Positions 584-20,828 of a DNA stretch of 22,948 bases are shown here, one piece after another. Made by a program: the position numbers and the translations under genes. The stretch comes from a virus. Within the stretch, counting starts at the first letter, position 1. The number at the start of each line of letters is the position of its first letter. The stretch spans positions 1-22,948 of the IMG/VR virus record IMGVR_UViG_3300013372_002037, one strand, 5' to 3'. The notes below the pieces were generated by a model. That model saw only the letters and a program-made list of their open reading frames with translations. It was not told the origin of the DNA and made no database searches.

Positions 584-987
584 CAGTCATCACTCCTAGG
601 ATCACGGATTTCGCCAATTAGTGATACGCTAATGCTTGAACGACCTGGCCTTACTGATTGAACTGATGGCGGATCTTTATATTCAAATCGTAAATTATCA
701 ATCGTACCATTGGCAATGCTAACTAAACCTGAATCCATGCCGCCCATCGTTGTTGCGGATAGCTGAAATCTTTTATTAATTGCGGTTTGGTTGCGATAAT
801 GATTAATGATCGCGGTAGCAGTTGAGTCAGCTACATTATCAAAACTCATATCTAGTGTTGATTGGCTTGGTGCATTACCAAATGTGCGTTTGGTTACCAC
901 CCCTGACAATGAACGATAGGAACGTTGCGGATAAATGCCTGGCGTGAAGTTGCGTTGGCTTGGTGTAAAAGAAGGGAAAGCAGCCAT
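583..987 (-). CDS. Minor tail protein, gpM-like / distal tail position
   Basis: A 134-residue protein encoded immediately after the tape measure, with the tape-measure stop and this start overlapping as TAATG. It begins with a Pro/Phe/Tyr-rich stretch (PSFTPSQRNFTPGIYPQRSY). A segment rich in beta-prone residues follows and it ends with a polar tail (RDPRSDD). In lambda-like phages the gene after the tape measure encodes gpM, a tail-tip protein linking the tape measure to the tip complex. Nothing in the sequence proves this beyond gene order, size and the lack of enzymatic motifs. It could equally be a distal tail protein. Confidence 0.5.
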   Translation of the reverse strand: MAAFPSFTPSQRNFTPGIYPQRSYRSLSGVVTKRTFGNAPSQSTLDMSFDNVADSTATAIINHYRNQTAINKRFQLSATTMGGMDSGLVSIANGTIDNLRFEYKDPPSVQSVRPGRSSISVSLIGEIRDPRSDD

Positions 988-3900: not shown

Positions 3901-6869
3901 CCAGAAATAATTCCAGCAATTTCATTGGAATATTCCGCCGCACCCTTCAATGATGCCATGTCACTAGTGGAAATTATTGGCCTACCTCCACCTCTCATGA
4001 TTGCCTTGTTAGTGTCATGTATACGCTCAAGAGTTTTAAGTCCTTCCGACACAACTCTATTTTTAGCCAATTCTTGATTTAATTGAGCTGTCACTGGAAG
4101 CACTTGGCCCATAGCAGCGGCATGTGCTCCTTCTTTTATTGCATCCCTAGAAGCTTCTCCCGCTTCTTTAGCTCTATCTCTCATAGATAAGAATGCCGTT
4201 GCAAGAGATCCCACTAAAACCACTAAAAGTCCAATGCCGGTGCTGGCTATTAATCCTTTTACTGCGGTGCCAAATCCCATTGTGGCAATTTGAGCACCAG
4301 TAGCTTGTACTCCAACAACCCTAAATGCGCCTGCCAATAAAGTGCTTTTAACCGCTGCTGCCATGCTAATAGTTCCGTTAGCCGCCACCACTGTATTCAC
4401 AGTCGCCAATGTCCCCGTAAATAATAGGGCTGCTAGTCTTATAGCAGTGAAGCCCAAAGCAAAAAGTGTAAGATTTCCAATTATAGATGTAAAATTACCG
4501 CCAAGAATAGTAAGAAACGGGCTTAGCACGTTGCCAATAACGCCAGCCAAGTTCATCACAAAAGTACCAGCTTTTGCTAGCTCAGTGGTAAAATTTCGTA
4601 TATCATTTACTCTTTGAACCATTGCGGGATCTTGCAAGGTTGTATTTAGCTGTTTATAACGCATTTCCAGTGCTAATACATTTTTTTCTGCTGCTTTAAT
4701 CTGCTCTGGTTTAGCACCGCCAACTTTTAAATCCACGACAATTTGCTTTGCGTCTTTTATTTGCGCTTGAACCCTTCCTACCTCTCCCATTGCAATTTGA
4801 GCTGCAATTCCAACATCTCTGAGCATCCTTGATAGTGGACCTAATGTTGCTTGAGCCGCCGAATCAGCCAAAGGCGCAAAACTTTCTAACGTGCGAGTAA
4901 AATCACCGCCAACAGTATTAATCAGACCTTGTAATGATTTACCAGCAATTTGAGCACCAGTGCCAAATCTATTGATCAGCTCATCACTTACCTTGGCAAA
5001 TACTTCTCTAAAGCGATTACCAGTAAATTCCCCATCCTCCATTGCTTTGCTAAAGTCCTTCACGGACATCCCAGCGGCTTTAGCGAAAATTGCCAACGCT
5101 CCAGGCAACACGTCGCCTAATTGTCCTTTGAGTTCTTCTGCCATGATTTGGCCTTTACTGGCCATTTGCCCGAAAGCATAAATAACGCGCTCAGCTTTAT
5201 CTGGCGTTAGTTGTAAAGCCGCAGTAGCAGCACTAATGCCAGTAAAGAGTTTTTCAATGGACCCGGAATCAAATCCTGTTGGAGCCATTGAAGCAAAAAG
5301 CCTAACAAAACCAGTTCTAGTAGTTTCTAAATTAAGGCCAAATGCTCGCTGAACATTATCAACAAAAAGCATTTCTTTTGCAAATGTACCAGTTTCTTGT
5401 GTGGAAACTTTTAATGCATTTGTAAATTGCTGTTGGCTTTTTGCTGCATTAAGAAGCTGGCCAGGTAAGCTTATGATAAAGCTTAATCCTTTATATGCAG
5501 CGCCATAAAGCAATACTTGTTTAGTCGCCTGTCCAAGTTCTCCCGCGATGCCTTTAAGTCCGCCAATTAACGGAAGTTGACTTGCACTGAAGTTTCGGCT
5601 GGATGCAGCAGACACATCTAATGCTGTTTTAAATTTCTCCATTTGGCTGCCAGCGCCAATGAAAGTTGCTGGTCCTTGTTTCCCTATCGGCATCCTCCCG
5701 TCAGAAGGGAATCCACCACCACCTGCGCCACCACCGCCAACAGGCATTCCCCCGACCGCACCACCACCTGCGGCTTGTTGAACTTGTGTGGCTCTTTGAG
5801 AGAAACCACGGAAACCCCCTTGAGTCACAGGTAGCGGTTGAACTTGAGCAGCGTTCCTGGAAAATTGCAGAAAACTATTGGGATCAGCAATAGGAGGCGT
5901 ACCACGAAGACGTGAAACCATTCTTGGTTCATATCCTGAATATCCAAATTGGCCCCTATCCCCACGAGCATAAGGAGCTTCGGATCCTACAGGTAGCGGG
6001 CCAATGGGAGCTGAATACATGCGATTGCCGACAAGTTGTTGACGCAATCTCCCCGTAGTAGGACCAACACCAGCCCCACTTATATCTTTAATTTTGGCAA
6101 ACTCTAATTTCAATAAAGCAACAATTGTTCTAACTTCTGAAATTGATTTACTCTTAAAATCTTTTAATCCATTTAAAAAGCCAAGTTCAAGACCATCAAC
6201 GCTAAATTCACCAATTTGCCTAAATACTTTCGATGGAGATGCAATACCAAGTGCATCTTTGATACCGCGAATGCCTTCTTCACCCACCTTGGCGGCAGCT
6301 TGCCCAATTTTTGATGAAGAATCCTTTAATCCAGCAGCAAAACCATTAATTGCTTCTTGCCCACTATTAGTAAAACCTTGAATAATTGATTTTTTATATT
6401 CATCTGTTGATGCTTTAGCAAGATTTCCCATCTCGCCGACAGACATTCCAGCGCCCACCATGGCTTTGCGAGCACTTTGTAATTGCGACCTGCTCAAGCC
6501 TTCTATTGCTTGAGAGCCCCTTACGCCTCCTGAAACGGCTCGACCTATCTGAGCGGTCCCATCAGAAGGTGGTTTGCCAACTTCTACATATTTAACTTTA
6601 ATTTCAATGGGAGTAGAAGTTGCTCTACGCAATGTTGCTAAACTTTTATTTAACGTACCAATTCTTCTCTTTGCAGCATCAAGCTGACTATCGTTAATTG
6701 TTATAACTGGTTTAATTTTTTCTAGATTTGTTAATTGTTTCTCAAAATCTACTGTGTCTATTGATAACTTGACACCAAAAAGACGAGTACTTGCTTCTGT
6801 AGCTAGCTTGTCTAACTGTGCGCGAAATCCTGCTAGATTTAGCGTTACGTCAAGTCTTAATTCAGCCAT
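987..6869 (-). CDS. Tape measure protein with embedded M23 peptidase domain
   Basis: A 1960-residue protein. I prefer the ATG at 6869 over the in-frame TTG at 6878. In order it shows: a polar, helical N-terminal part; a Gly-rich linker (about 365-395); a classic tape-measure N-terminal-type domain (about 430-660, with YAFGQMASKGQIMAEELKGQ); hydrophobic helices (about 770-900); a long Glu/Lys/Arg coiled coil (about 1050-1170); an M23-like zinc peptidase domain; a second coiled-coil region; a Gly/Ala-rich hydrophobic stretch (about 1790-1845); and the C-terminal ADGGMVSGPTLGMVGEGKYNE motif common in tape measures. M23 metal ligands are present as H-x3-D (His1215, Asp1219) and H-x-H (His1295, His1297). 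It should span the tail tube lumen and fix tail length. The hydrophobic segments fit membrane insertion, and the peptidase fits local peptidoglycan cleavage during DNA delivery. It lies directly after the G/GT chaperone, as expected. Confidence 0.93.
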   Translation of the reverse strand: MAELRLDVTLNLAGFRAQLDKLATEASTRLFGVKLSIDTVDFEKQLTNLEKIKPVITINDSQLDAAKRRIGTLNKSLATLRRATSTPIEIKVKYVEVGKPPSDGTAQIGRAVSGGVRGSQAIEGLSRSQLQSARKAMVGAGMSVGEMGNLAKASTDEYKKSIIQGFTNSGQEAINGFAAGLKDSSSKIGQAAAKVGEEGIRGIKDALGIASPSKVFRQIGEFSVDGLELGFLNGLKDFKSKSISEVRTIVALLKLEFAKIKDISGAGVGPTTGRLRQQLVGNRMYSAPIGPLPVGSEAPYARGDRGQFGYSGYEPRMVSRLRGTPPIADPNSFLQFSRNAAQVQPLPVTQGGFRGFSQRATQVQQAAGGGAVGGMPVGGGGAGGGGFPSDGRMPIGKQGPATFIGAGSQMEKFKTALDVSAASSRNFSASQLPLIGGLKGIAGELGQATKQVLLYGAAYKGLSFIISLPGQLLNAAKSQQQFTNALKVSTQETGTFAKEMLFVDNVQRAFGLNLETTRTGFVRLFASMAPTGFDSGSIEKLFTGISAATAALQLTPDKAERVIYAFGQMASKGQIMAEELKGQLGDVLPGALAIFAKAAGMSVKDFSKAMEDGEFTGNRFREVFAKVSDELINRFGTGAQIAGKSLQGLINTVGGDFTRTLESFAPLADSAAQATLGPLSRMLRDVGIAAQIAMGEVGRVQAQIKDAKQIVVDLKVGGAKPEQIKAAEKNVLALEMRYKQLNTTLQDPAMVQRVNDIRNFTTELAKAGTFVMNLAGVIGNVLSPFLTILGGNFTSIIGNLTLFALGFTAIRLAALLFTGTLATVNTVVAANGTISMAAAVKSTLLAGAFRVVGVQATGAQIATMGFGTAVKGLIASTGIGLLVVLVGSLATAFLSMRDRAKEAGEASRDAIKEGAHAAAMGQVLPVTAQLNQELAKNRVVSEGLKTLERIHDTNKAIMRGGGRPIISTSDMASLKGAAEYSNEIAGIISGNQLKKGGKGFEIQAFLMPQLSQAREQAGQISAETRKSSILLKEQQQQALRNAKRLGLNDPTLGTGTNEGETEEEKRKREQEKKLEDTRANRQSQLDQEAANRQIALDQSSFDSRLRMSDAEYDHKRALQDDYFAREISGLDSIEARQKKHQQDLKAIEDRRIDSIRKAELDAVKAVQDLRSATVKAGKPVSGGLGSVNPAKGSKFQGFEVTGLPGESRAYRNGTHEGFDFATPIGTALSYSIGGIVKSIDKVGRGKAGKTIEVMLNNGITGMSMHLSEVLLAAGQSFEANQIIAKTGDTGAGPAHLHQESAPHGYRSGQAGASLAYLNVGSGGPRPKSRSVDTNTRPGEYAMGRREDKAEGNLAVEQQDAQNRALEKSIILRNENDLALQRTITSVKQNIDSIFPVKEQKLENDLLELRNNLESKGASKQMIDMEVAKAKAIKESALAMKTYTDKITENETSLKEYNKIKTPTEKEKEQIKFLTDQIAVYKAILAGLPKLQAEFNNELARTAKLTTETSFKSAITSLKDRMKMAQAFTSDQELKTQISLDYRDSSPEKQQEIYDLTKVARNLEDTKALIGNFVSSTLSDYKGFLKAVISGEDAVDALQKFQEGLTDKVLTIFLDFAMAPVEEVMKKSLGGLFARKADIPKVNEAEVPVVANTTATDANTEAIKANTSALGGKVSGKEVDPMSLEDFSKGVPIKTEPFVSSESAFADFNTKDMFTGLNTEGMFSGLNEQIRAGLAEIPSSLDEATANLQISSEPFQQALIVDLPNTITAAGKDVKTQGATFGEGLTSFVGGIGAAAAGIAGIAAGISQIGKGGTSNVLGGIGSILMGAGGAIGGFGKIFGFADGGMVSGPTLGMVGEGKYNEAIVPLPNGRSIPVQFNQESSLRSAMGNNNSNNNSVSPVLSMSFETTRFGNTDYVSREQLEAAMMQTRAEATKAGARRGMTMTLDKLQQSPSTRSRVGLG

Positions 6870-6901
6870 ATTCGACAATAGCCCTATTATTCATAATATA
6901 G

Positions 6902-10775: not shown

Positions 10776-10791
10776 TCAAGCCGAAGCTTGA
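10776..10791 (-). other. UUCG-loop RNA hairpin over the capsid stop codon
   Basis: On the minus strand TCAAGC-TTCG-GCTTGA is a perfect 6-bp stem closed by C-G around a UUCG tetraloop, an exceptionally stable RNA loop. The last three bases of the 3' arm are the TGA stop of the major capsid gene. There is no U-tract after it, so it is not a classic intrinsic terminator. It may block 3' exonucleases, slow ribosomes at the stop codon or partly insulate the downstream gene. Confidence 0.65.
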
Positions 10792-11690
10792 ACGTAAATT
10801 ACGCTCTTAGGGAAGTACAGTGCTACACCACCCACGCGAGCGTGAGCAGGAACAATGAACTCAAGACCGCGCTGTTGAGGAGGGAACAATTCGAGAGGCT
10901 GAGGAATATGCAGTTGCACTTTCTCAGGATCGCGCTTGTAAACCACCATACGATTAGTATTCAATTCGCTATTACCTTCATCCAGTTGATTGATCGGCTC
11001 AATATTACGGATGTAAGGATTAGTACGAAGGAAATACTCAAGCACAGTAACGTCCGAAGAATCGGAATTACGAGTGGTGCTTACTACGTTGTAGTCTTCG
11101 TAAGCCATCAAGATGGTGTCGGGCTGCTCCTTCATCTTGGAAGCATTGATGATGGCAGAAACGCCATAGTTCAATAGTTCCAGCATGTCTTGAGCAGTGC
11201 CACTAGCAGTAGTGCCAGTGAACCACTTGTTGGCTGCAATTACATCAACAGTTGCATTGTTAAAGAAACCAGCCAAGCCAACAGAAGATTCGCCAAACAT
11301 GGCAACAGCTTCCACTTTCTCTTCATAAGCACGACGCACTGCTTGGGCGCGACGTTGCTCAAGAGCAATATTAGCCATTTGAGCAGCACGTAATTCTTGT
11401 ACGGTATAACCGAAGCTACCACCGAAAGAACGAATGTTGATGCTCTTTTCCACTTGGCTAATGTCTGCACGTGGCAAATCATCAGCAGCATCTGCAATCA
11501 ATTTGAACTCACCAGTGGAGTTCATGATGCGGAAAGTGAAAGTTTGTGCGCCAGGACCAGCTTCGCTAGTTACAGGCAAGATGGTTGGATATTTGATATC
11601 GGCATAAACCGTTTCAAATACTTGAGGGCGGATGAACTCAAGCTGACGCTCAAGAAACAGACCCGCGTCGTCTAGACGAAAATCAGACAT
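10776..11690 (-). CDS. Major capsid protein, DUF2184-like
   Basis: A 304-residue protein that forms the icosahedral shell. The N-terminal FLERQLEFIRPQVFETVYAD, the SFGYTVQELRAAQMANIALEQ segment and FIVPAHARVGGVALYFPKSV near the C-terminus match the DUF2184 class of HK97-fold major capsid proteins as I know them. An ideal Shine-Dalgarno sequence, AGGAGG at 11704-11699, lies eight bases before the ATG. The neighbours agree: decoration and protease/scaffold genes before it and a connector after it. A stable hairpin spans its stop codon. Confidence 0.88.
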   Translation of the reverse strand: MSDFRLDDAGLFLERQLEFIRPQVFETVYADIKYPTILPVTSEAGPGAQTFTFRIMNSTGEFKLIADAADDLPRADISQVEKSINIRSFGGSFGYTVQELRAAQMANIALEQRRAQAVRRAYEEKVEAVAMFGESSVGLAGFFNNATVDVIAANKWFTGTTASGTAQDMLELLNYGVSAIINASKMKEQPDTILMAYEDYNVVSTTRNSDSSDVTVLEYFLRTNPYIRNIEPINQLDEGNSELNTNRMVVYKRDPEKVQLHIPQPLELFPPQQRGLEFIVPAHARVGGVALYFPKSVIYVQASA

Positions 11691-12269: not shown

Positions 12270-13463
12270 TCAGCGCTCCTTAGAGACGGAGAGAGGGGAT
12301 TTCCAAGCATTCTGCAATTTATCCATGTAGGACGAAGGTGCAGACATTGGAGAAACAAGAGAAGCAACAGCTTTACGCAGTTCTTCTGTAGCAGCAGAAT
12401 CACCACGGGAGGTTGATTCAGCTAAGGTGTCGAACATAGCAGTTACATAATCATCGGAACGGTCCGATAAATCAGCATCACTACGAACGGCTTTGATGGA
12501 AGTTTCCATGATTTCACGAGCAGTTTTGCCAGTAAAATCAAAAGCAGCATCAAGAGAAGGACGAGCTTTATCGATTAGCGCAATACGCTCTTCAACAAGG
12601 CTGTCAACATTCGTTTTTTGCGCTTCGGACAATTCACCTTTAAGGCTGTCTACTTCTTCAGTAAGTGCATCAGCACGTCCTTCAGCAGCATCAACTTTGC
12701 CTTTCATTTCCTTGTACATGGCATCCATTTCTTCCTTCATTTTGGAAGCTTCTGCCATCATGCCATCGTACTTTTTCTTCATGTCCGCGTAGGACATTTT
12801 GGCGTCATCTCGTTCTTTAGTGATCGCTAGCGCTACGCTCTCAGTCACCTCAAACTCAGCGCCATCAAAATTGACTTTTGCAGTCATAGATGGTTCCTCA
12901 ATGGGAGTAAATAAAGAAGGATCGGCAGCATCTAGACGATCTAGATGTAGCTTCACTTGCGGGCCAGCCCTGCCCCGGCGAACAACAGCAATGTGATTTC
13001 CGTTGATATCTTTTTGGATGCCATCGTAATTTTCACCACTATCAGTCACACCAGGAATCGCCTCATAATTGACACGATAACCAGCGCTGACCTCCTTTGC
13101 ATCACCACGCATAATGCGTTCAATAGCATCCTTATCAGTGATTGTCATAACTGCACGAACAAAGCCGTTGTCATAAACCACTTCAGTGCTAGTGAAGCCA
13201 ATTTGATAGTCCTTTGTGTTGGAACTATCTAAAAGAACTGATGGATGTTCAAGAGTAATTGCTTTGCCCGCAAACGAGGCCAAGCTAATAGGAGAGGCCA
13301 CCTCTGCCTCCGGGCGATACTCACGACGAATTGAACCATCAGCATCAGTGTACTGTTGTACACCAGTGCGAGCGATGGTTGCCCAAGCACGAAGATAACC
13401 TTCAGGGGTTAGCTCATACTTGTCAATCGGCGCTACATCGTAACGGAAGCAAGTGTCGCTCAT
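12270..13463 (-). CDS. DUF2213 prohead protease with scaffold domain
   Basis: A 397-residue protein. Residues 1 to about 180 match the DUF2213 type: YELTPEGYLRAWATIARTG, KAITLEHPSV (His candidate) and DAKEVSAGYRVNYE (Ser candidate). A His and Ser in this spacing are the pattern of the U35-like prohead protease fold. Residues about 205-285 form a Met/Lys/Glu-rich coiled coil, typical of a scaffolding part. The C-terminal part has ERIALIDKARPSLD and DADLSDRSDDYVTAMFD, which recur in this family. It should scaffold the prohead and then cleave itself and other head proteins. No Shine-Dalgarno sequence lies before the ATG, but a TGATATAGT extended -10 sits so close that the mRNA may begin at or next to the ATG. 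Confidence 0.85.
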   Translation of the reverse strand: MSDTCFRYDVAPIDKYELTPEGYLRAWATIARTGVQQYTDADGSIRREYRPEAEVASPISLASFAGKAITLEHPSVLLDSSNTKDYQIGFTSTEVVYDNGFVRAVMTITDKDAIERIMRGDAKEVSAGYRVNYEAIPGVTDSGENYDGIQKDINGNHIAVVRRGRAGPQVKLHLDRLDAADPSLFTPIEEPSMTAKVNFDGAEFEVTESVALAITKERDDAKMSYADMKKKYDGMMAEASKMKEEMDAMYKEMKGKVDAAEGRADALTEEVDSLKGELSEAQKTNVDSLVEERIALIDKARPSLDAAFDFTGKTAREIMETSIKAVRSDADLSDRSDDYVTAMFDTLAESTSRGDSAATEELRKAVASLVSPMSAPSSYMDKLQNAWKSPLSVSKER

Positions 13464-13524: not shown

Positions 13525-13821
13525 ATGCAACACATTCAACATCGCAGGCTTACCACTCGACTAAAAGCACCAAATATTACTATTCAGGAAAGTAGGCAAG
13601 TAATTGGTAATCGCATGAAAGAAGCGCGATTAAATTCTGGCATGTCACAACAAGATATTGCACAGATTTTACATTGCGATCAAACTACTATTTCACGCAT
13701 GGAACGAGGAGCGATATCTCCTGATTGCGCTCAAATTCGTACACTTAGCTCAGTATTTCAACTTTCTATTCTGTACCTGCTTGGCTATCCCACTTTTGTG
13801 GTATCAGCCACTGCTAGTTAG
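13525..13821 (+). CDS. Cro/CI-type HTH transcriptional regulator
   Basis: A 98-residue protein with one XRE-type helix-turn-helix at about residues 39-62: SGMSQQDIAQILHCDQTTISRMERG (given here as the motif MSQQDIAQILH then TTISRMERG). The rest is a basic N-terminal arm and a short hydrophobic C-terminus (LSILYLLGYPTFVVSATAS). It is the only rightward gene within the leftward late block. It is divergent from the protease/scaffold gene and convergent with the acidic protein gene, sharing a 3-base stop overlap. It probably binds the adjacent gap and controls itself and possibly the late genes. A repressor and an activator are both possible. No dimerisation domain of the CI type and no RecA-cleavage site is present. 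An internal ATG (13615) is a possible shorter start. Confidence 0.85.
   Translation: MQHIQHRRLTTRLKAPNITIQESRQVIGNRMKEARLNSGMSQQDIAQILHCDQTTISRMERGAISPDCAQIRTLSSVFQLSILYLLGYPTFVVSATAS
13783..13809. terminator. Hairpin at the convergent gene ends
   Basis: GGCTATCCCAC-TTTT-GTGGTATCAGCC folds with the arms GGCT/AGCC, AT/AT and CCAC/GTGG, one C-T mismatch and one bulged C. It lies inside the last codons of the regulator gene, 9 bases before the leftward gene's end. There is no U-tract on either strand, so it would be a weak terminator or a simple RNA structure. It may limit read-through where two transcripts converge. Confidence 0.35.
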
Positions 13822-14129
13822 TCATCATCTTCATCGTCATCACGCAATTCAGCCAATTGATCCTCAATGCCTGCCATCACATAAGCTTTAGCTATTGCTT
13901 CGGCTTCAAAAACTAAGAATTTGCTTTCTTCAAAATGCTCATCAGGTTTGTCGTAAGAGCTTTTGACGAAAATGTGTGTTTCGTCTAAACGGCCATTTTT
14001 AAAATGCTGCTCTTCAATTAAACGCCAATGAGTGGTACTGCGATGCTCGTTGGCTGAAAGGATAGCCAATGCCTTCATCGTGCCAATGCCTTCATCTTCT
14101 TCTTCAATGACGCGGACGTATTCGCTCAT
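13818..14129 (-). CDS. Small acidic protein of unknown function
   Basis: A 103-residue protein with an acidic N-terminus (EEEDEGIGTM), a central part with the pattern of a mixed alpha-beta fold (WRLIEEQHFKNGRLDETHIF) and a C-terminal run DDDEDDD. The start overlaps the stop of the previous gene by four bases (ATGA). The strong negative charge suggests a partner with a basic surface, perhaps DNA-mimicking or binding a basic protein, but this is only a guess. No family recognised. Confidence 0.6.
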   Translation of the reverse strand: MSEYVRVIEEEDEGIGTMKALAILSANEHRSTTHWRLIEEQHFKNGRLDETHIFVKSSYDKPDEHFEESKFLVFEAEAIAKAYVMAGIEDQLAELRDDDEDDD

Positions 14130-14677
14130 GGTTTTGATTGACGGCTTTCTACCATCTTAATGATGCGATTCGCCCATGACCTACCTGCATCTCCGCCCCA
14201 TAACTGCCAAGCTATGTAACCAGCATCATCTTCACCGCCGCTCTTATTCTTCTCGTGCCTTGAGAAAAACGCAGCCATGCGCTTAACTATTTCATAACTT
14301 ATCGACTGACCATTAGCCAGGCTCGTGGCTCTCGCCACTCCACTACCAATGCCTTGCTCACCGGCTTCCTGCGTGGTTAAACCTCCTTTGCCATACTTCT
14401 TGCGTAGTTCTAGCCCACGACGCGCTGCGGCTTGCATAGACGATGGCGGGGAAAAAGATTCAGCATCTCCTCGATCCTCTTGAAACGTTTCCACATAAGC
14501 CCTTAAATATGCTTCGCTTGCATCTTTTTGCTTTATAGGCACACCTGCCTCACTTAATGCAATTGCTAATGCTTGACGACCATTCTTCACTAATTCACCG
14601 CTGCTGCTTTTAAGCGTACCGGCTCCAAATTCTTTCATTACAGAAGCAATTTTGGCTTGCTTTTCTTTTTTAGTCAT
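14126..14677 (-). CDS. Two-domain phage protein of unknown function (WGGDAGRSWA type)
   Basis: A 183-residue protein. Residues 1 to about 45 (KIASVMKEFGAGTLKSSSGE, then NGRQALAIALSEAG) look like the short DUF6496-type module common in phages. The second half has ARRGLELRKKYGKGG, GVARATSLANGQSIS, VKRMAAFFSRHEKNK and GYIAWQLWGGDAGRSWA. That second module is often seen near the head protease or as a part of head proteins, though its biochemical role is unknown to me. It lies between the methyltransferase of the glycan cassette and the small acidic protein, and overlaps the latter by four bases. A link to head assembly is inferred from location. Confidence 0.6.
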   Translation of the reverse strand: MTKKEKQAKIASVMKEFGAGTLKSSSGELVKNGRQALAIALSEAGVPIKQKDASEAYLRAYVETFQEDRGDAESFSPPSSMQAAARRGLELRKKYGKGGLTTQEAGEQGIGSGVARATSLANGQSISYEIVKRMAAFFSRHEKNKSGGEDDAGYIAWQLWGGDAGRSWANRIIKMVESRQSKP

Positions 14678-14694: not shown

Positions 14695-15225
14695 CTAAGC
14701 TTTCACTCCATAAAAATACAAATCACAAGATTGAGTGTTCACGCTGAATTGATGCTCAATAAAAATAGAAGAAAAATCTATGAAGCCAAAATCTTCTTCC
14801 GTCAAATTTAAGTAGTAGCTCCAGCCTTTTGCAATAGTCAAAGGACTGTCTTGTGGTGTTGAGCGTTCAGTGCCGTGTTCAGGGCGTCCAGTGGTAGCAC
14901 AGGTAAATATCACGAGCCCTCCGCTTGCGCAAAGGCGAACCATGTTTAGGAAAGTTTCTTTCCAGAAAGGATTGTGCTCAAAGCACTCACAGGATATACA
15001 GCAATCAAACAACTTGTCGCTGTCATATTCGTGCCCGCTAATAACAACATCCACTCCTGGACCACTGCCCACATCTACGCCCACATATTCACTGGAAGTG
15101 AAGGCATTTCGCACTGTACCATTGATATTCAAGCTTCCTATTTCTAAAGTTCTTTCTCCGCTAAAAGCAAGAGGAAATTTAGCCTTGAGAGAATTAATGT
15201 AGTCCGATTGTTCTTTATGAGCCAT
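14695..15225 (-). CDS. SAM-dependent methyltransferase (class I, type 11-like)
   Basis: A 176-residue Rossmann-fold methyltransferase. It has the motif I region TLEIGSLNINGTVRN, motif II YVGVDVGSGPGVDVV, an acidic motif LFDCCISCECFEHNP and a later strand GGLVIFTCATTGRP. Methyltransf_11-like proteins of this form often sit in polysaccharide gene clusters, where they methylate sugars. Here it is the last gene of a cassette with three glycosyltransferases, so capping or modifying a glycan is the best guess. Methylation of a protein or a nucleotide is an alternative; there is no DNA-methylase NPPY motif. The stop TAA of the upstream gene and this ATG are two bases apart. Confidence 0.75.
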   Translation of the reverse strand: MAHKEQSDYINSLKAKFPLAFSGERTLEIGSLNINGTVRNAFTSSEYVGVDVGSGPGVDVVISGHEYDSDKLFDCCISCECFEHNPFWKETFLNMVRLCASGGLVIFTCATTGRPEHGTERSTPQDSPLTIAKGWSYYLNLTEEDFGFIDFSSIFIEHQFSVNTQSCDLYFYGVKA

Positions 15226-15227
15226 GA

Positions 15228-15947
15228 TTAATTAATGAATCCAATGGGAGCGGTGGCAATGTTCATGCCAGGGAAAAGTCTATCCCGATACAATACCATG
15301 CCTGTAATCAGCCGTTCTGCAATAAAGGCAATGGCCCTTTTGTCATAGCCTTCAATTTTTAATAAAGATTCTTTGTTTTCCTCCCAAATTGGCGTCAATG
15401 CATCTAAAATAGTAGTCATAAACTCTTGGTATTGACTGCGTGGTCCACGCGCCATGTTGCAACCAATAAATAAATTCTGCTGCCAAATTTTATCCATCTC
15501 TTCGCGAGAGAATAGCCATTGCCCCGTATCAGCCAGTGCCTTGGTAATTGACGGCGCATCAAATGCCGAATGCCCACTATAAAATTGCTGCTCAAGACTA
15601 CAACTAAATGTTGCAAATTCTGGAACGTACAACGTGTTTTCGTCATACCACTCGTTGCTTGGCTCAACCCAATTGCGCCGATACTGTGCATTGCCAATGT
15701 TCGCCTGCTGAGCATTATTGACTATCCATTGAATGCACGACAGTTCACCAATGCAGGGGTTTAATGGGGAAAGAAATGATTGTTCTTCGTCATCAAAAAC
15801 ATAACCTTGCTGACGCAAGTCTTCGCGTTCTCCTTCAAGTATTTTATATGCTCCGCCCATAATGGGAATCAATGGAGCACGAGACGAATAGCGCACCGTC
15901 TTACCGGGAATACATACTGCGTAGATGGCGCAATCAGACGGTTGCAT
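15228..15947 (-). CDS. DUF4422-family glycosyltransferase
   Basis: About 239 residues from the ATG at 15947, which overlaps the previous stop by 14 bases; the longer reading from 16001 would overlap by 68 and has no advantage. The features ELSCIQWIVNNAQQANIGNA, AQYRRNWVEP and KRAIAFIAERLITGMVLYRD match the DUF4422 pattern (N-x-x-E-L near the start, H/Q-Y-R-R, and F-x-A-E-R-L near the C-terminus). DUF4422 proteins are predicted glycosyltransferases of capsular and exopolysaccharide clusters. The donor and acceptor are unknown. It lies between a GT32-like gene and a methyltransferase gene, in the same transcript. Confidence 0.7.
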   Translation of the reverse strand: MQPSDCAIYAVCIPGKTVRYSSRAPLIPIMGGAYKILEGEREDLRQQGYVFDDEEQSFLSPLNPCIGELSCIQWIVNNAQQANIGNAQYRRNWVEPSNEWYDENTLYVPEFATFSCSLEQQFYSGHSAFDAPSITKALADTGQWLFSREEMDKIWQQNLFIGCNMARGPRSQYQEFMTTILDALTPIWEENKESLLKIEGYDKRAIAFIAERLITGMVLYRDRLFPGMNIATAPIGFIN

Positions 15948-16647
15948 ATACGTCTCTCGCCGCCCATAGTTTATTGTAGTTATTAACGCCCTTAGCCCCA
16001 ATTCCAGTTAAGTCGCCACCGCCAGAAGGCTTGCTCCATGCCATGATCGTGCCATCAGGAAGAACAAAGGCTCTATTTTTTTGCTCGTGCGTAGGTGTGA
16101 GTTCTAAGTAATCACCATAAACAAAATTAGTTTCGCCACCATTAGCAGCTAAGGCGGCGCCCAGCAACGATGGTCCAGTAGGGCACAATGGCGTGATGCC
16201 ATAATATTTATTTTTGCAATTATTAACAATCATTTCAATGGCAAATTGCAAGGCCGTGTTATCAGGCTTGGAGTAAAGAACAGTAGTAGCACAAGCCCAT
16301 GAAGTAAAGCTAAATCGTTGAATATCTCTAAATGCTAAGAAATCAATGCGTTCACCTACTTCCACTGGATTAACCATTCTTACGCCAATATCTAAGTACC
16401 ACCCTCCAAGTTTATTAAGCAAGCAAAATCTTCCCAAATCCGCTTTATATGAATATGGCTTCAAGCAATCATAAGCTGACACCACGCTTTCTCCATAATT
16501 TTCATTAATAAAATTGCGTAATGTTTCTTTGTTATACAATTGATAATCAGCACCAGGAAATGCACCTTGCACCGTGCCAGTGGCATGTTTCAGGAATGGT
16601 GATAACTCTGCGTCGCTATCGGAAAGAAAGATTTGAGAAACGTTCAT
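15934..16647 (-). CDS. GT32-type glycosyltransferase (sugar-binding DXD region)
   Basis: A 237-residue protein. The key block SYKADLGRFCLLNKLGGWYL, followed by DIGV, is the sugar-nucleotide binding region of the GT32/OCH1-like family. Further along, CPTGPSLLGAAL matches the family's 'TGP' segment. In the usual DXD motif both aspartates hold the metal and nucleotide; here the second is Gly (D-I-G). Close relatives that I recall often have D-I-K-Y at this point, so the change may be a subfamily trait and not inactivation. It lies between the GT4 and the DUF4422 genes, with start and stop joined by ATTAATTAATCATG, the same junction as the next gene pair. Confidence 0.75.
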   Translation of the reverse strand: MNVSQIFLSDSDAELSPFLKHATGTVQGAFPGADYQLYNKETLRNFINENYGESVVSAYDCLKPYSYKADLGRFCLLNKLGGWYLDIGVRMVNPVEVGERIDFLAFRDIQRFSFTSWACATTVLYSKPDNTALQFAIEMIVNNCKNKYYGITPLCPTGPSLLGAALAANGGETNFVYGDYLELTPTHEQKNRAFVLPDGTIMAWSKPSGGGDLTGIGAKGVNNYNKLWAARDVYATV

Positions 16648-16649
16648 GA

Positions 16650-17882
16650 TTAATTAATCCGAGCAGGAGTGCCAAAACCTTTAAAGGTCGATGGTGGTTG
16701 ACTATTCAAGGTGCGGTTCACAATAGAAAGTAATTGCTTCCCAATGTTATCCCATTCAAATGCTGGCTCACAAGCTCGTTCATAACACCAATCAGCATCT
16801 TTTTTTAACGCATCACGATTATCGTAATAATAGGAAAGCAGCTCCGCGCCATGACTTGCTGATGGGATGCCTCTATCTAAACCATAGTGCCTGTCTACTT
16901 CCCAGCTTTCAATATCCATACGTGGCACATTGTAAAAAATCTCTTTCAGGCTTGTATGATCAGGAACCACTTGCGCTTTCCCCGTAGCTGCGTGTTCAAA
17001 GTTCACAAGCCCCCAGCCTTCGCCCATGCAAGTATTAATACCAACATCGCAAGCGTTATATACTTTGTTTAATTTTTCAATGGGAAGGCAATTGTTTGTA
17101 TCGTAACTGGGGCCAACAAGGATAAGCTTTTGCTTAGGATCGTAACCTTCATCGCGAGCTATTCGTTTGAATAATGGTATCAAATCCCAGCCCAAGTCTT
17201 TATTCCCCATATTCAACCACAATCGAGCATCTGGCTTATCTTTAGCAAATTCAATAAAGCTTTTGATTGTAATATCAATACGTTTGCGTGGTTGATTCCT
17301 ATTACCATTGAATACAATAAATATATCTTCTGGCACACCAAGCTCGCGTCTGCATTCATTCTGATCAATGGGGAAAAATAAAGATCTGTCTACGCCATGA
17401 GGGATAATATCTATAGTTGACTCATAACCAGCCTTGCGAACTTCTTCTGCACCAAATTCTGTGTACACACCAAAGCCATCCCAGTCCACAGCCATTTTCA
17501 TGGTTTCAGGGAAAATGCCATAAGAATCAATGGGGCTATACGAATAAAATTTAAAGTCCAAGTTTTCTTTTAATGGTTTCACCGCTTCCCATAAATTTAA
17601 ATTTACCCAAAAATCATTTGTCGCCCAAATTAAATCAGGCTTCACTTGATCAACAATAGAAGCAATACGATGAGCACCGAATGGATCGCTGCCATGGATA
17701 CCAGCAGGATATACTTTGTAATTTCGTGCTTCAGGGGAGTAATCGCCCCAGTAATTAACGGCTAAAACATGCACATCATGCTCTTTTGCTAGTATTGGCA
17801 GTAGATGTGCCGCCACTCGACCGAAACCTGTCTGGACGAAAGCATCGCCACAGTAAAGAATTTTTGCCACAAGAAAAATCAA
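16650..17882 (-). CDS. GT4-family glycosyltransferase
   Basis: A protein of 410 residues from the TTG at 17882, or 406 from the GTG at 17870 (MAKILYCGDAF), which I find slightly more natural. The N-terminal half is a Rossmann-like domain with a Gly-rich acceptor loop (GDAFVQTGFGRVAAHLLP). The C-terminal half has NRNQPRKRIDITIKSFIEFA and TCMGEGWGLVNFEHAATGKA, the E-x7-E motif that binds the sugar nucleotide in GT-B retaining enzymes. It has no membrane segment, so it should act in the cytosol. It is the first gene of the cassette, 24-36 bases after the MuF-like head gene. Donor sugar and acceptor cannot be told. Confidence 0.88.
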   Translation of the reverse strand: MIFLVAKILYCGDAFVQTGFGRVAAHLLPILAKEHDVHVLAVNYWGDYSPEARNYKVYPAGIHGSDPFGAHRIASIVDQVKPDLIWATNDFWVNLNLWEAVKPLKENLDFKFYSYSPIDSYGIFPETMKMAVDWDGFGVYTEFGAEEVRKAGYESTIDIIPHGVDRSLFFPIDQNECRRELGVPEDIFIVFNGNRNQPRKRIDITIKSFIEFAKDKPDARLWLNMGNKDLGWDLIPLFKRIARDEGYDPKQKLILVGPSYDTNNCLPIEKLNKVYNACDVGINTCMGEGWGLVNFEHAATGKAQVVPDHTSLKEIFYNVPRMDIESWEVDRHYGLDRGIPSASHGAELLSYYYDNRDALKKDADWCYERACEPAFEWDNIGKQLLSIVNRTLNSQPPSTFKGFGTPARIN

Positions 17883-17906: not shown

Positions 17907-18584
17907 TCAAACAGGGACCACTTGCGCTTGGCCGCGATAATAAACAACGCTGCATTTACATCTGGCACCACATTCGCAACGAACACCAGGCATAGGCAAG
18001 CTACCAATAGAAACCATCCCACGAGCTGCATAACCAATGCAATCCCCACAATGCACTGCTTGATCATCTAACACTCGCCGCATCATAGAGAAGCCTCGTT
18101 GCTGCTCCTTCATCTCAGTGCCTTGCCAATACGAACCACGAGCGCTTTGTGCATACAAGCCAATACGTGCCATTGCCATTGGTGCTGAAATGCGACCATC
18201 AATTAAATCACGAGCAAAGCCTTGCAGATAGGTGTATTCAGAACGTAGGCGTTGACCAATACGGCCATATTCACTACGTCCCATTTCAGCTTTACCGCCA
18301 TAGCCGATAGTGGCAACTTGTATATGAGCGATTTTAATTGCTTCACGGACACTGCCTTGCCATTGCTCCAAGGTTATAGAACCATTAACGAGCTTTTCTG
18401 TGAAGCTTTTTAGCTGTTGCTCAAGCTTGCTGATGCGACCATCAACAATAGCACCAACTGCTTTTTTGCTTAAGAATTGCCCCTTTTCGTTTCTGTAACG
18501 TCCAACTTTACGATCATAAGACCACTCAGCGTCCATCCTGGTGGACATTATGGCATTACTGAAAGCAGCTAAATCATTCAACAT
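17907..18584 (-). CDS. MuF-like minor head protein
   Basis: 225 residues from the ATG at 18584, which overlaps the upstream stop by 11 bases; a longer reading to 18686 would overlap by 113 and has a low-complexity basic start. The N-terminal helical part contains GQFLSKKAVGAIVDGRISKLE. The C-terminal part has HCGDCIGYAARG, then SLPMPGVRCECGARCKCSV. The C-x2-C and 'P-x-P-G-x-x-C-x-C-x-x-x-C-x-C' arrangement is typical of the C-terminal region of SPP1 gp7/MuF-like proteins, where Cys ligands may bind a metal. Such proteins sit in the capsid interior with the portal and may enter the cell with DNA. The gene follows the portal region, as expected. Confidence 0.75.
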   Translation of the reverse strand: MLNDLAAFSNAIMSTRMDAEWSYDRKVGRYRNEKGQFLSKKAVGAIVDGRISKLEQQLKSFTEKLVNGSITLEQWQGSVREAIKIAHIQVATIGYGGKAEMGRSEYGRIGQRLRSEYTYLQGFARDLIDGRISAPMAMARIGLYAQSARGSYWQGTEMKEQQRGFSMMRRVLDDQAVHCGDCIGYAARGMVSIGSLPMPGVRCECGARCKCSVVYYRGQAQVVPV

Positions 18585-19227
18585 TATCAGCTTCCAACAA
18601 TTCTTTAAATTTAGCTGGTGCTTCTTCTTTCCATTGTTGCATTGCCTTTTCAATGTCTTCGTCTGAAATGAAAGCCGCTTCGTCAATACCAGCCAACATC
18701 ACCCCTTCAGCTTTTACTGGAGTGATTGCATCTTCTTTAGTTGCTAGAAATTCTTCATGCTTTTCAAGGAATATTGAATGCGTAGAACACGGCATAAATA
18801 TCGGACCATCTTCGCCTTCTTCTTGATGGAAGCCATTACAACCAATTTTCTTTGCTGTTGCTAAAGCTTCTTCCTTAGTGGCATATGAATGTGCGGCTGG
18901 ATCTTTGGCATCCACTTTGCTGCTAACCATTTTTGCCGGTCCTTTGCGATCAGGATCGGGGTCAGCTTTACGCTTACGGGCCACAATTGTTTGACGCTCT
19001 TCCTTTGATAAAGATTGTGCTTTTGCTTTAGGGAGGCATTTGGGCTTGCCTTCCTTTTCTTCGCGTCCACCACATGGTCCCATTATTTCACCATTGGCAC
19101 CAATCCTTACCCATCCTTCTTTAAACCATTGCCCAAGATCATCTTCATTGATTTCACCATCGTCACCTTTAAATGCACCACTAATAGAACCATGCTTCTC
19201 CTTGTACATGCGTTTGTACTGTTGCAC
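18574..19227 (-). CDS. DUF5872-like protein, N-terminus incomplete
   Basis: 217 residues from the GTG at 19227, starting QQYKRMYKEKHGSISGAFKG. It contains WFKEGWVRIGANG, MGPCGGREEKEGKPKC, LPKAKAQSLSKEE and RKRKADPDPDRKGPAK. These are the ordered motifs I know from DUF5872-like proteins of phages and large DNA viruses (W-F-x-E-x-W-V, P-C-G, a cysteine-containing block, K-R-K-x-D-P). The middle (residues about 108-150) looks like a second unit with Cys and His residues (KIGCNGFHQEEGEDG). The family opening, KVWPSAYASGYVVQQYKR, is encoded in frame just upstream, but no ATG, GTG or TTG starts it. The function is unknown; position between portal and MuF-like genes suggests a virion-associated or head-assembly protein. 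Confidence 0.65.
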   Translation of the reverse strand: MQQYKRMYKEKHGSISGAFKGDDGEINEDDLGQWFKEGWVRIGANGEIMGPCGGREEKEGKPKCLPKAKAQSLSKEERQTIVARKRKADPDPDRKGPAKMVSSKVDAKDPAAHSYATKEEALATAKKIGCNGFHQEEGEDGPIFMPCSTHSIFLEKHEEFLATKEDAITPVKAEGVMLAGIDEAAFISDEDIEKAMQQWKEEAPAKFKELLEADNVE

Positions 19228-19283: not shown

Positions 19284-20828
19284 CTACGGCACGGCTATAA
19301 GAGCTGCATCAGTAAATTTAACATCACCACGCACTTCTTCTAAATCACCAGGAAGAAATAAGCCAGCAGCATCTTCCACTTCACGACTGCCATCCATCGG
19401 CAAGGTGCCATTCTCTTCATCTAATGGATCACGACCACCAACTGGAACTGCAGGCTTGCCACTTTCCTGCTGACTTGCACCACTTCCCGGCTGGGCCGGA
19501 AGCTCACGAGGAAGCGATGGGTCGAGAGTGAGTTCCATCGACCATTCAGAGCCGCCATAACGAGCATCTGCCACTTCTTTCGGATGAAGCACCCCTAGCT
19601 GTATATAGCGACCATCAACAGCAGCTACACGCGCTCTAACATCAGCTTTTTCGCGTTCATTTAATTCAAATAGATCATTAAATTTAATCCGCCATGATTC
19701 AGGCAATCTGCCATTTGTTGGACCTTCTTTACTCAGCATTAAAATTTTCATTAGATGCTGTAATGATCTCTTGTAATGCGTGGATTGGTAATCACCAAGA
19801 TGTTTTGCAAAGTCACGCTCCTCACTGCGGCCAGTGGAACCAAGACCACCAGGGCTTTCGCCAAATAAAATTGTATGTGGTATTTGTGATGCTCCAATAA
19901 TATCAATGCGAAGCTTTTCTAATATTTCACCAACACCACCAAAATTCCTGCTAATAAATTCAAGTTCTTCTTTTTCTGCATCAATCGCATAACCACGATA
20001 GATGCTTTTGCTCATATCATTTAGCACTAAACGATCTCTTACATCGTTTTCTTTACCAGCAGCCAGCATAGAAGAAAGGCCGCGCAGTTTATGTACAAAA
20101 ATATCAAACTCCGTTAATAATGTTGCCGCTGAGCTAATACCAGTGGAGTAAAACCGAAAGCTATCATATACACTTTGCAGTGTACTCATCCCCCACCCAT
20201 AGTTTCTTTGTCTAATGCGATATGGTAACCATTCACCATCAAAACGTAACACTCTATCTTTATGAATTTTGATTAATTGTGGTTGCCTAATAAGATCACC
20301 AGAAATAATTTGATAATAAGTTGCTTTTGAATAATCATATAGACTATCTTCATTGATTACTGGTGCAATCTGCCAGCGATCTAATACTTCCATGCCTTCT
20401 ACAGCACGAATATTGCGATAATCAACTGGCTGATCCGCTGACCTACCATCGTCGATATAAAGCAAAATCACTGAGCCGCCAAATAACCTTGCATTCTTGG
20501 AGGCCAAGCCCAGATTTTCAAGGATATACAGGTCTTCTATTATTTGTTCGATGCCAGCCACTTCTTTTGCTGCTGCACCTTCACCACCAAACAAAACCTT
20601 GAACCCTTTCCTGGTGGATTGTTCTGCCACAATATCGACGATACGTTTAGGAATCCATTCGCTATAAAGATTCTCTAATTCTTCTTGGGTAAGGAAGACG
20701 ATGGGGGTGGAATTGGTGTACTGGCTTTTATCTCTCCCCGTGCCCATGCCCGTTAAAGCATTCACCAAACCATCAGCCCTAAAGAAATTGTCACCATTGT
20801 GTCCTAAATCAACAGTTTCGTTTGACAT
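19284..20828 (-). CDS. Portal protein, DUF1073 type
   Basis: A 514-residue portal. It has EWIPKRIVDIVAEQSTRKGF near the N-terminus, GGSVILLYIDDGRSADQP, VLRFDGEWLPYRIRQRNYGW and then GASQIPHTILFGESPGGLGS, the typical middle of DUF1073 portals. The C-terminal third is polar and Gly/Pro-rich. It forms the dodecameric ring at the portal vertex that TerL docks to. It lies at the head of the leftward structural operon, divergent from TerL, which is unusual. Automated databases now often call this family anti-CBASS Acb1-like; here the size and the context show a portal. The ATG at 20828 has no clear Shine-Dalgarno sequence. Confidence 0.9.
   Translation of the reverse strand: MSNETVDLGHNGDNFFRADGLVNALTGMGTGRDKSQYTNSTPIVFLTQEELENLYSEWIPKRIVDIVAEQSTRKGFKVLFGGEGAAAKEVAGIEQIIEDLYILENLGLASKNARLFGGSVILLYIDDGRSADQPVDYRNIRAVEGMEVLDRWQIAPVINEDSLYDYSKATYYQIISGDLIRQPQLIKIHKDRVLRFDGEWLPYRIRQRNYGWGMSTLQSVYDSFRFYSTGISSAATLLTEFDIFVHKLRGLSSMLAAGKENDVRDRLVLNDMSKSIYRGYAIDAEKEELEFISRNFGGVGEILEKLRIDIIGASQIPHTILFGESPGGLGSTGRSEERDFAKHLGDYQSTHYKRSLQHLMKILMLSKEGPTNGRLPESWRIKFNDLFELNEREKADVRARVAAVDGRYIQLGVLHPKEVADARYGGSEWSMELTLDPSLPRELPAQPGSGASQQESGKPAVPVGGRDPLDEENGTLPMDGSREVEDAAGLFLPGDLEEVRGDVKFTDAALIAVP

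Follow-up and report, generated by a model that had tools for sequence, protein, structure and literature searches.

An exchangeable glycan-gene cassette among the head genes of S-CBS4-type cyanophages, with the virion as its probable target

The window analysed here (the whole 22,948-nucleotide stretch, IMG/VR record IMGVR_UViG_3300013372_002037) belongs to the lineage of Synechococcus phage S-CBS4, a group of viruses that infect aquatic cyanobacteria. Four ORFs at positions 14695–17882, all leftward and almost without gaps, encode a GT4-like glycosyltransferase, a GT32-like glycosyltransferase, a DUF4422 protein and a class I methyltransferase (Table 1). A preliminary description had placed four consecutive leftward genes here within a head operon, and both points were borne out. 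All ORFs were found at that place and on that strand, and the block sits between a post-portal protein and the genes preceding the head protease, itself confirmed by PHROG 530 and PF09979. The flanks are head genes, and in relatives the cassette does not lie far from them, its position being constant within the lineage. The ‘MuF-like’ label given to the post-portal protein was not confirmed, since it has no MuF Pfam match and its sole match is PHROG 24776, of unknown function.

Table 1 Features of the cassette and its surroundings (window coordinates).
Feature	Position	Strand	Evidence
GT4-like (GT-B fold) glycosyltransferase, cassette anchor gene	16650..17870	-	PHROG 2170, AF2 fold, B736L match, E-x7-E
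GT32-like glycosyltransferase (Gly_transf_sug)	15934..16647	-	PF04488, alignment of 22 relatives, 9n3s weak profile match
DUF4422 protein, predicted GT111 fold	15228..15947	-	PF14393, AF2 model, WbbM 6u4b match
Class I SAM-dependent methyltransferase	14695..15225	-	PHROG 32762, motifs in 18 relatives
Left boundary gene, conserved head-region protein	17907..18686	-	PHROG 24776
Right boundary gene, DUF6496/PHROG 2859	14126..14677	-	Profile matches, identity breakpoint
Head maturation protease (DUF2213)	12270..13463	-	PF09979 E 3e-41, PHROG 530 E 1.5e-99
Major capsid protein, candidate acceptor	10776..11690	-	85% identity to S-CBS4 major capsid protein
Portal protein	19284..20828	-	Synteny and homology with S-CBS4 portal

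All four genes are under purifying selection relative to their homologues (omega 0.04–0.19), which, together with a gene order that recurs in dozens of contigs, argues that their association is more than chance. They are presumably co-transcribed; scanning the region for promoters and terminators gave counts equal to those of shuffled controls. No membrane segment is predicted in any of the four window products (best 19-residue hydropathy 1.58), as expected if the enzymes act in the cytosol.

The enzyme classes named in the preliminary description agree with Pfam and PHROG profiles and with predicted folds, and the motifs it quoted (E-x7-E, YRRNW with FIAERL, and LEIGS) are present and conserved in alignments of relatives. 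The first enzyme matches PHROG 2170 ‘glycosyltransferase’ (E 6e-55). The Pfam GT4/GT1 models return E-values of 6e-5 to 1e-4, with scores under the curated cut-offs (23.5 vs 28.5 and 22.6 vs 26.4 bits for Glyco_transf_4 and Glycos_transf_1). We therefore label it ‘GT4-like’, as the Pfam cut-offs are not reached while the fold and the PHROG match back a broad GT4-type assignment. Its AF2 model (pLDDT 87.3) adopts a predicted GT-B fold, and E-x7-E is invariant in the GT4 of 30 relatives. By both profile (E 5e-33) and fold (Z 38.6 vs 33.0 for the next structure), the closest solved relative is chlorovirus B736L (3oy2). Judging by the family consensus MAKILYCGD, the most likely start codon is the GTG at 17870 rather than the TTG at 17882. 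Related GT4s elsewhere in phages do not always lie among head genes (S-EIVl, TJE1).

The second enzyme matches PF04488 above the cut-off (26.3 vs 23 bits). In place of the canonical DXD it has YLDIG, and all 22 aligned relatives show D-x-G/A at the corresponding position, hence the name ‘GT32-like’. A weak profile match was obtained to 9n3s, a yeast-type initiation mannosyltransferase structure (E 0.0026). The methyltransferase matches PHROG 32762 (E 2e-67), and LE-x-GS-x-x-NG and neighbouring motifs are conserved in 18 relatives; from its sequence it is probably a sugar O-methyltransferase.

The DUF4422 protein matches PF14393 (36.2 bits, cut-off 25), and the family alignment places its start most likely at the ATG at 15947 rather than the TTG at 16001. 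Its predicted fold (pLDDT 94.6) matches residues 7–266 of WbbM (6u4b), the GT111 galactofuranosyltransferase domain, with Z 21.9 and an rmsd of 2.9 over 222 residues, the next chain scoring Z 9.9. The model thus suggests a probable galactofuranosyl- or related glycosyltransferase. The DUF4422 domain and GT111 fold are common to the window enzyme and the galactofuranosyltransferases WbbM and PamA, although those come from bacterial O-antigen and galactan loci and share only ~15% identity with the phage protein. A UDP-Galf mutase was found neither in the window nor in 12 longer relative records, and on the latter ground supply of UDP-Galf by the phage was rejected. Of 151 related picocyanobacterial genomes, just 8 have a UDP-galactopyranose mutase above the cut-off, and among the relatives it adjoins DUF4422 in three only (L045, L216 and L218). 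Because the mutase is absent or rare, the donor used by the window-type enzyme may be other than UDP-Galf.

A survey of relatives shows that the place of the cassette is fixed and its content variable. Gene calls in these metagenomic contigs followed a simple longest-ORF procedure, with single-linkage clusters. Glycan genes beginning with or including GT4 occupy the same spot in 47 of 47 relatives with a complete interval, in 15 different gene sets. No empty site occurs among these 47, so that ‘inserted’, as the genes had been described, is not quite right, and no cassette family was found outside the locus in 692 kb of relatives’ loci. The proposed conservation of the order of the four genes holds in part: GT4 is present in all 47 and GT32 in most, whereas it is the distal DUF4422 and methyltransferase genes that vary, often giving way to other enzymes. 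A strict four-gene cassette is therefore rejected. Variable partners include a C-methyltransferase with O-methyltransferases, an NAD-epimerase with a DegT/RfbH-like aminotransferase, GT2, GT25 and GT-D enzymes, and a UDP-galactopyranose mutase (TIGR00031, over cut-off). Such sets are biochemically coherent as glycan-building pathways. Relatives that seemed to carry GT4 only do not represent a minimal one-sugar system, as their GT4 is fused to a GT25 domain. S-CBS4 itself carries gp14–gp16 at the same locus (GT4 63%, methyltransferase 57%), where a GT2-type ‘galactosyl transferase’ replaces the GT32 and DUF4422 genes of the window and an HNH endonuclease adjoins. Searching 50,697 phage records by tblastn with GT32 and DUF4422 gave no match, so the window’s version of the cassette is not seen in annotated isolates.

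Whole and partial cassettes have been replaced between near-identical backbones. Head genes 95–100% identical often flank different gene sets, and the breakpoints fall on the cassette edges or close to them. Four contigs (L034, L035, L188 and L189) share 95–97% DNA identity with the window over most of the flanks (93% in one stretch), up to 17951 and again from 14677. Between these points their set is only 68% alike, lacks the methyltransferase and contains four extra genes. The recurrence of this arrangement in four separate contigs argues against an assembly chimera. Across cassette swaps the left boundary protein keeps 93–96% identity, and the start codon of the right boundary gene is the point at which backbone identity returns. 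Relative L186 matches the window in portal (98%), protease (95%) and capsid protein (96%), yet its GT4 is only 61% identical and it lacks GT32, DUF4422 and the window-type methyltransferase. An exchange confined to the distal part separates L201 from L195 (portal 100%, GT4 96%, GT32 97%; DUF4422 39%, with different partners). Overall, architecture differs in 10 of 16 non-independent pairs whose proteases are at least 95% identical.

Could these be moron-like passengers acquired from hosts, with no phage role? The variable content and the nearby homing endonucleases mark a recombinogenic region, as such a reading would expect. We consider it improbable, however, given that the cassette is never absent in the 47 complete relatives, that purifying selection is strong, and that DUF4422 subtypes co-segregate with their partner enzymes (13 label changes on the tree vs 35.4 in shuffles). 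Close GT32 relatives, moreover, occur mainly in phages, at the same locus. Distant ones in picocyanobacterial chromosomes are sparse and 33–66% identical across most of the gene, and one bacterial chromosomal relative (L260) is a degenerate GT32 adjoining a GT4 fragment; an origin as host-derived fragments was rejected on these grounds. By sequence, the chromosomal copies look less like a source than like genes passed on from phages or drawn from a long-shared pool.

The explanation that we favour, with fair confidence, is a modular glycan-building cassette whose product would be a short, variable glycan, in many cases methyl-capped, carried by a virion protein; on our analysis, the variable sugar coat most likely lies on the virus particle itself. 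Late in infection, the soluble cytosolic enzymes would act in turn on an assembling virion protein. The GT4 would add a sugar at or near the start of the chain, which the GT32-like enzyme would then extend. Next, the GT111-fold DUF4422 enzyme would add another sugar, perhaps a furanose, before O-methylation of the product by the methyltransferase. The earlier idea of a multi-sugar, methylated product is supported, the sugars and the methyl cap themselves being inferred. Recombination at the cassette edges or in the distal part would then give nearly the same capsids different glycans. None of the virion proteins compared tracks the cassette, and since the most conserved of them stay the same across cassettes, covariation cannot single out an acceptor.

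Few phages with glycosylated virions are known, and most of them are actinobacteriophages. The report on mycobacteriophage Corndog (Cluster O) describes an O-methyltransferase and three glycosyltransferase genes between the portal and capsid maturation protease genes, with enzymes made in infected cells but absent from virions, and proposes methyl or glycan modification of the capsid (PMC4351075). The window likewise has glycosyltransferases and a methyltransferase between portal and head protease, although host and phage are unrelated and the likeness rests on gene position and enzyme classes. Glycosylated virions of actinobacteriophages are reported, as cited in PMC11256854 and PMC13313380. 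In chloroviruses, soluble glycosyltransferases encoded by the virus build the capsid glycans, virus methyltransferases cap them, and antigenic variants map to the genes involved (PMC9614988); the terminal sugar is methylated, and glycan variation without capsid protein change gives antigenic classes (PMC9614988, PMC5408694). PBCV-1 and NY-2A (A064R, A061L, A546L/B736L) thus resemble the window in their soluble glycosyltransferases and methyltransferases, and B736L is the nearest solved structure to the phage GT4. Chloroviruses, however, infect eukaryotic algae and their genes are dispersed, whereas the S-CBS4 lineage has one exchangeable cassette with an inferred acceptor. Virus-encoded glycosylation of virions is already proposed or known elsewhere; what is shown here is the swapping of a cassette between near-identical backbones, which the accessible Corndog text does not report (PMC4351075).

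The main rival, to our mind unlikely, is that the cassette remodels the surface polysaccharide of the infected host, whether LPS core or O-chain, which would exclude competing phages or stop progeny from binding debris; the cassette’s variability would then track host glycans and competitors. The known phage glycosyltransferases do include several whose targets are host surface glycans or DNA. The epimerase, the RfbH-like aminotransferase, the UDP-galactopyranose mutase, the GT25 ‘LPS biosynthesis’ enzymes and the WbbM-like DUF4422/GT111 proteins are of O-antigen type, and the distant GT32 relatives in picocyanobacterial chromosomes point the same way. Pelagimyophages offer a parallel: their host-recognition clusters are hypervariable islands in the structural region (mean 44.6 kb) that carry LPS-type glycosyltransferases and have been read as modifying host LPS, with co-infection avoidance proposed (PMC7029224). 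Those clusters, however, are larger and enclose tail fibres, whereas the cassette showed no identifiable tail-fibre gene. Furthermore, neither the window cassette nor the named cassette families include a flippase, polymerase, ligase, undecaprenyl-phosphate primer or membrane glycosyltransferase, all four window enzymes look soluble, and head-operon genes are usually expressed late, leaving little time for exclusion. Nor does the locus resemble serotype-converting gtr systems (a membrane glycosyltransferase and flippase next to attP/integrase), its products having no membrane segment and its neighbours being head genes.

Glycosylation of phage DNA bases is highly improbable, well known though DNA-glucosylating phage enzymes are. 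No base-hydroxylating or hypermodification enzyme was noted in the window or beside the S-CBS4 cassette, and the exchangeable partner genes encode sugar methylases, nucleotide-sugar enzymes and protein- or LPS-type glycosyltransferases. DNA hypermodification was rejected on this basis, in line with the preliminary description. To our knowledge, DUF4422/GT111 and GT32 are not DNA-glycosylating families.

If the virion is indeed the target, the locus might, more tentatively, act as a phage ‘serotype locus’: a single recombination-exchangeable head-operon cassette that gives near-identical capsids different surface glycans under diversifying selection. It could then be the functional counterpart of bacterial O-antigen or capsule loci, a comparison we offer with some reserve. 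Selection might conceivably come from grazers, from host factors recognising virions or from intracellular capsid-sensing host immunity. Bacteria have no antibodies, so the reason for glycan diversity on phage virions is itself a question. It is a testable one in this lineage: nature supplies near-isogenic backbones that differ in their cassettes, and a cultured host is available for S-CBS4. The lineage, widespread in the environment, is seemingly never without a glycan cassette and trades it as a unit; S-CBS4-type sequences were among the dominant ones in Lake Baikal viromes, at >1% of reads (PMC8066274).

The four cassette genes lie among late head genes of the 22.9-kb virus record, on the strand of the neighbouring structural genes (table). 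Intergenic gaps are 2-3 bases, the GT32 and DUF4422 genes overlap by 14 bases, and the cassette is separated from the upstream boundary gene by 36 bases and from the downstream gene by 17, a spacing as expected if the cassette genes share a transcript. A promoter and terminator scan of the region gave counts equal to those in shuffles.

Gene order around the cassette in the window
Feature	Position	Strand
Portal	19284-20828	minus
Two head-region genes	between portal and GT4	minus
GT4	16650-17870	minus
GT32-like	15934-16647	minus
DUF4422	15228-15947	minus
Methyltransferase	14695-15225	minus
DUF6496 gene	14126-14677	minus
Xre/HTH regulator	13525-13821	plus
Small gene	between DUF6496 gene and head protease	minus
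Head protease	12270-13463	minus
186-aa gene	between head protease and major capsid protein	minus
Major capsid protein	10776-11690	minus
Neck and tail genes, including tape measure	beyond major capsid protein	minus

The closest annotated phage by DNA is Synechococcus phage S-CBS4, which infects Synechococcus CB0101. It shares the window's gene order and has an 85% identical capsid protein; its cassette comprises GT4, a GT2-type transferase and a methyltransferase. The Xre/HTH regulator gene, which runs opposite to the head genes between gp16 and the protease, has the same place and orientation in S-CBS4 and in the majority of relatives; head operons do not usually have a conserved regulator in their midst. 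The tape measure candidate (987-6878, 1963 aa) contains an M23 peptidase-like stretch (HLHQES).

IMG/VR scans for relatives yielded 20 loci for GT4 and 5 for DUF4422, with 80 of 109 candidates kept for GT32, 80 of 469 for the methyltransferase and 80 of 95 for the upstream boundary gene. Dereplication left 97 family contigs, of which 47 hold the complete interval from the boundary gene to gp16/HTH/protease. Glycan genes, including GT4, fill this interval in 47/47, in 15 architectures (GT32 in 40, DUF4422 in 35, the window's methyltransferase family in 22). The same enzyme families were not found outside the interval in 692 kb of those loci, which are parts of genomes only. Cassettes of relatives also include a C-methyltransferase (PF08484), TylF/RMNT-type O-methyltransferases, an FkbM methyltransferase, UDP-galactopyranose mutase, an epimerase with an RfbH-like aminotransferase, GT2 and CAP59-type transferases, GT-D and a GT4-GT25 fusion. 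A further member is an upstream block that encodes a xylose-isomerase-like TIM protein together with an FAD oxidoreductase; in one such block (L189:2912-5137) the oxidoreductase and its neighbour lie opposite to the head genes.

Against relative contigs L034, L035, L188 and L189, most flanking stretches of the window show 95-97% DNA identity (93% in a short piece in L035), which breaks off within the upstream boundary gene (17951) and restarts exactly at 14677, the downstream gene start. Between these points the sets are 68% identical, the methyltransferase is missing from L034, L035 and L189, and the swapped block holds four extra genes. A capsid dS of 0.05 against saturation in the cassette genes agrees with exchange. 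Relative L186 matches the window at portal (98%), upstream gene (96%), capsid (96%) and protease (95%), while its GT4 is only 61% identical and the other cassette genes are replaced. Among the 16 pairs whose proteases are at least 95% identical, 10 differ in architecture; in more distant bins the fraction is 0.78-0.94. Exchange can also hit the distal part only: L201 and L195 share GT4 (96%) and GT32 (97%), but their DUF4422 proteins are 39% identical and have different partners. When partner enzymes are mapped on the DUF4422 tree, their labels change 13 times, compared with 35.4 times in shuffles; the mutase group forms one fully supported clade, and so does the epimerase/aminotransferase group. 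DUF4422 subtype and partners thus move as a set, which is what one would predict of enzymes that together determine a glycan's outer part. Since near-copies add to this clustering, it is support rather than proof. HNH/NUMOD-type homing endonuclease genes adjoin or lie within the region in several relatives (L002:12690-13205; L051:4235-4750; L206:4244-4936; L114:7761-8294) and may help to mobilise the cassette. One contig (L073:1-10070) carries two apparent tandem cassettes (GT4 GT4 GT32 OMT c126 gp17, then DUF4422 CMT MT OMT), either a recombination intermediate or a chimeric assembly.

All four cassette genes are constrained (omega 0.04-0.19 against relatives with unsaturated dS). Modelled with AlphaFold2 (pLDDT 94.6), the DUF4422 protein matches WbbM residues 7-266 (Z 21.9, rmsd 2.9 over 222 residues, Foldseek E 3.4e-10; next chain Z 9.9), whose N-terminal domain is the UDP-galactofuranose transferase defining GT111 (PMC12269835). 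A candidate galactofuranosyltransferase role fits the presence of UDP-galactopyranose mutase (TIGR00031, over cut-off) beside DUF4422 in relatives L045, L216 and L218; the mutase evidence does not fix the window enzyme's donor, because it shares only 41-44% identity with the DUF4422s of these three, and a search of 12 other long relative records found no mutase. For GT4 (model pLDDT 87.3), chlorovirus B736L is nearest by profile (E 5e-33 versus 1e-4 for the next) and fold (Z 38.6 against 33.0). The GT32-like protein passes the PF04488 cut-off, yet D-x-G/A replaces DXD.

Most likely, the four enzymes, which are soluble and whose genes stand in the late head region, glycosylate a protein that assembles in the cytosol. 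This reading draws on their solubility (no hydrophobic stretch of transmembrane strength was found in the four products), location, constant presence and variability, together with the lack of export or polymerisation functions. GT4 would act first, then GT32, DUF4422 and methylation, as gene order and the gradient of conservation suggest. Remodelling of host LPS, the main rival, we judge unlikely: the content is O-antigen-like, and pelagimyophage authors argue for such modification by their islands (PMC7029224), but the cassette has no membrane or export component and sits in the head operon. Virion glycosylation has three closest precedents. In Corndog, portal and protease flank three GT genes and an O-methyltransferase, for which capsid modification is proposed (PMC4351075), and PMC11256854 and PMC13313380 cite reports of glycosylated actinobacteriophage virions. 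Chloroviruses make and cap their capsid glycan with soluble GTs and methyltransferases of their own, and changes in these enzymes create antigenic classes with an identical capsid gene (PMC9614988, PMC5408694); natural relatives of the window likewise combine the same capsid with different glycan genes.

Virion glycosylation cassettes in head operons have been proposed earlier. No description of a never-empty, exchangeable cyanophage cassette was found in the literature searched, which covered only a minority of subscription papers and did not extend to the S-CBS4 genome paper. Three things are new relative to that literature: a cyanophage lineage that always has glycan genes at this locus, the exchange of the locus, whole or only distally, among backbones that are nearly identical, and a GT111-fold member in such a cassette.

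The methyltransferase family has a wide distribution, with 469 candidate stretches; outside this lineage, phages often carry it beside other glycosyltransferases, sometimes in 2 or 3 copies (L150, L153, L160, L167, L168; L146, L149, L176). A second phage group has a GT4 42-43% identical, adjoining a terminase-like gene and several more GT-like genes (L025:1453-8173; L020:234-3805). GT32 relatives 58-66% identical occur in chromosomal contigs of Nitrotoga, Nitrosomonadales and proteobacterial MAGs (L256-L258, L260), unexpected for a cyanophage gene; one is a degenerate copy beside a GT4 fragment.
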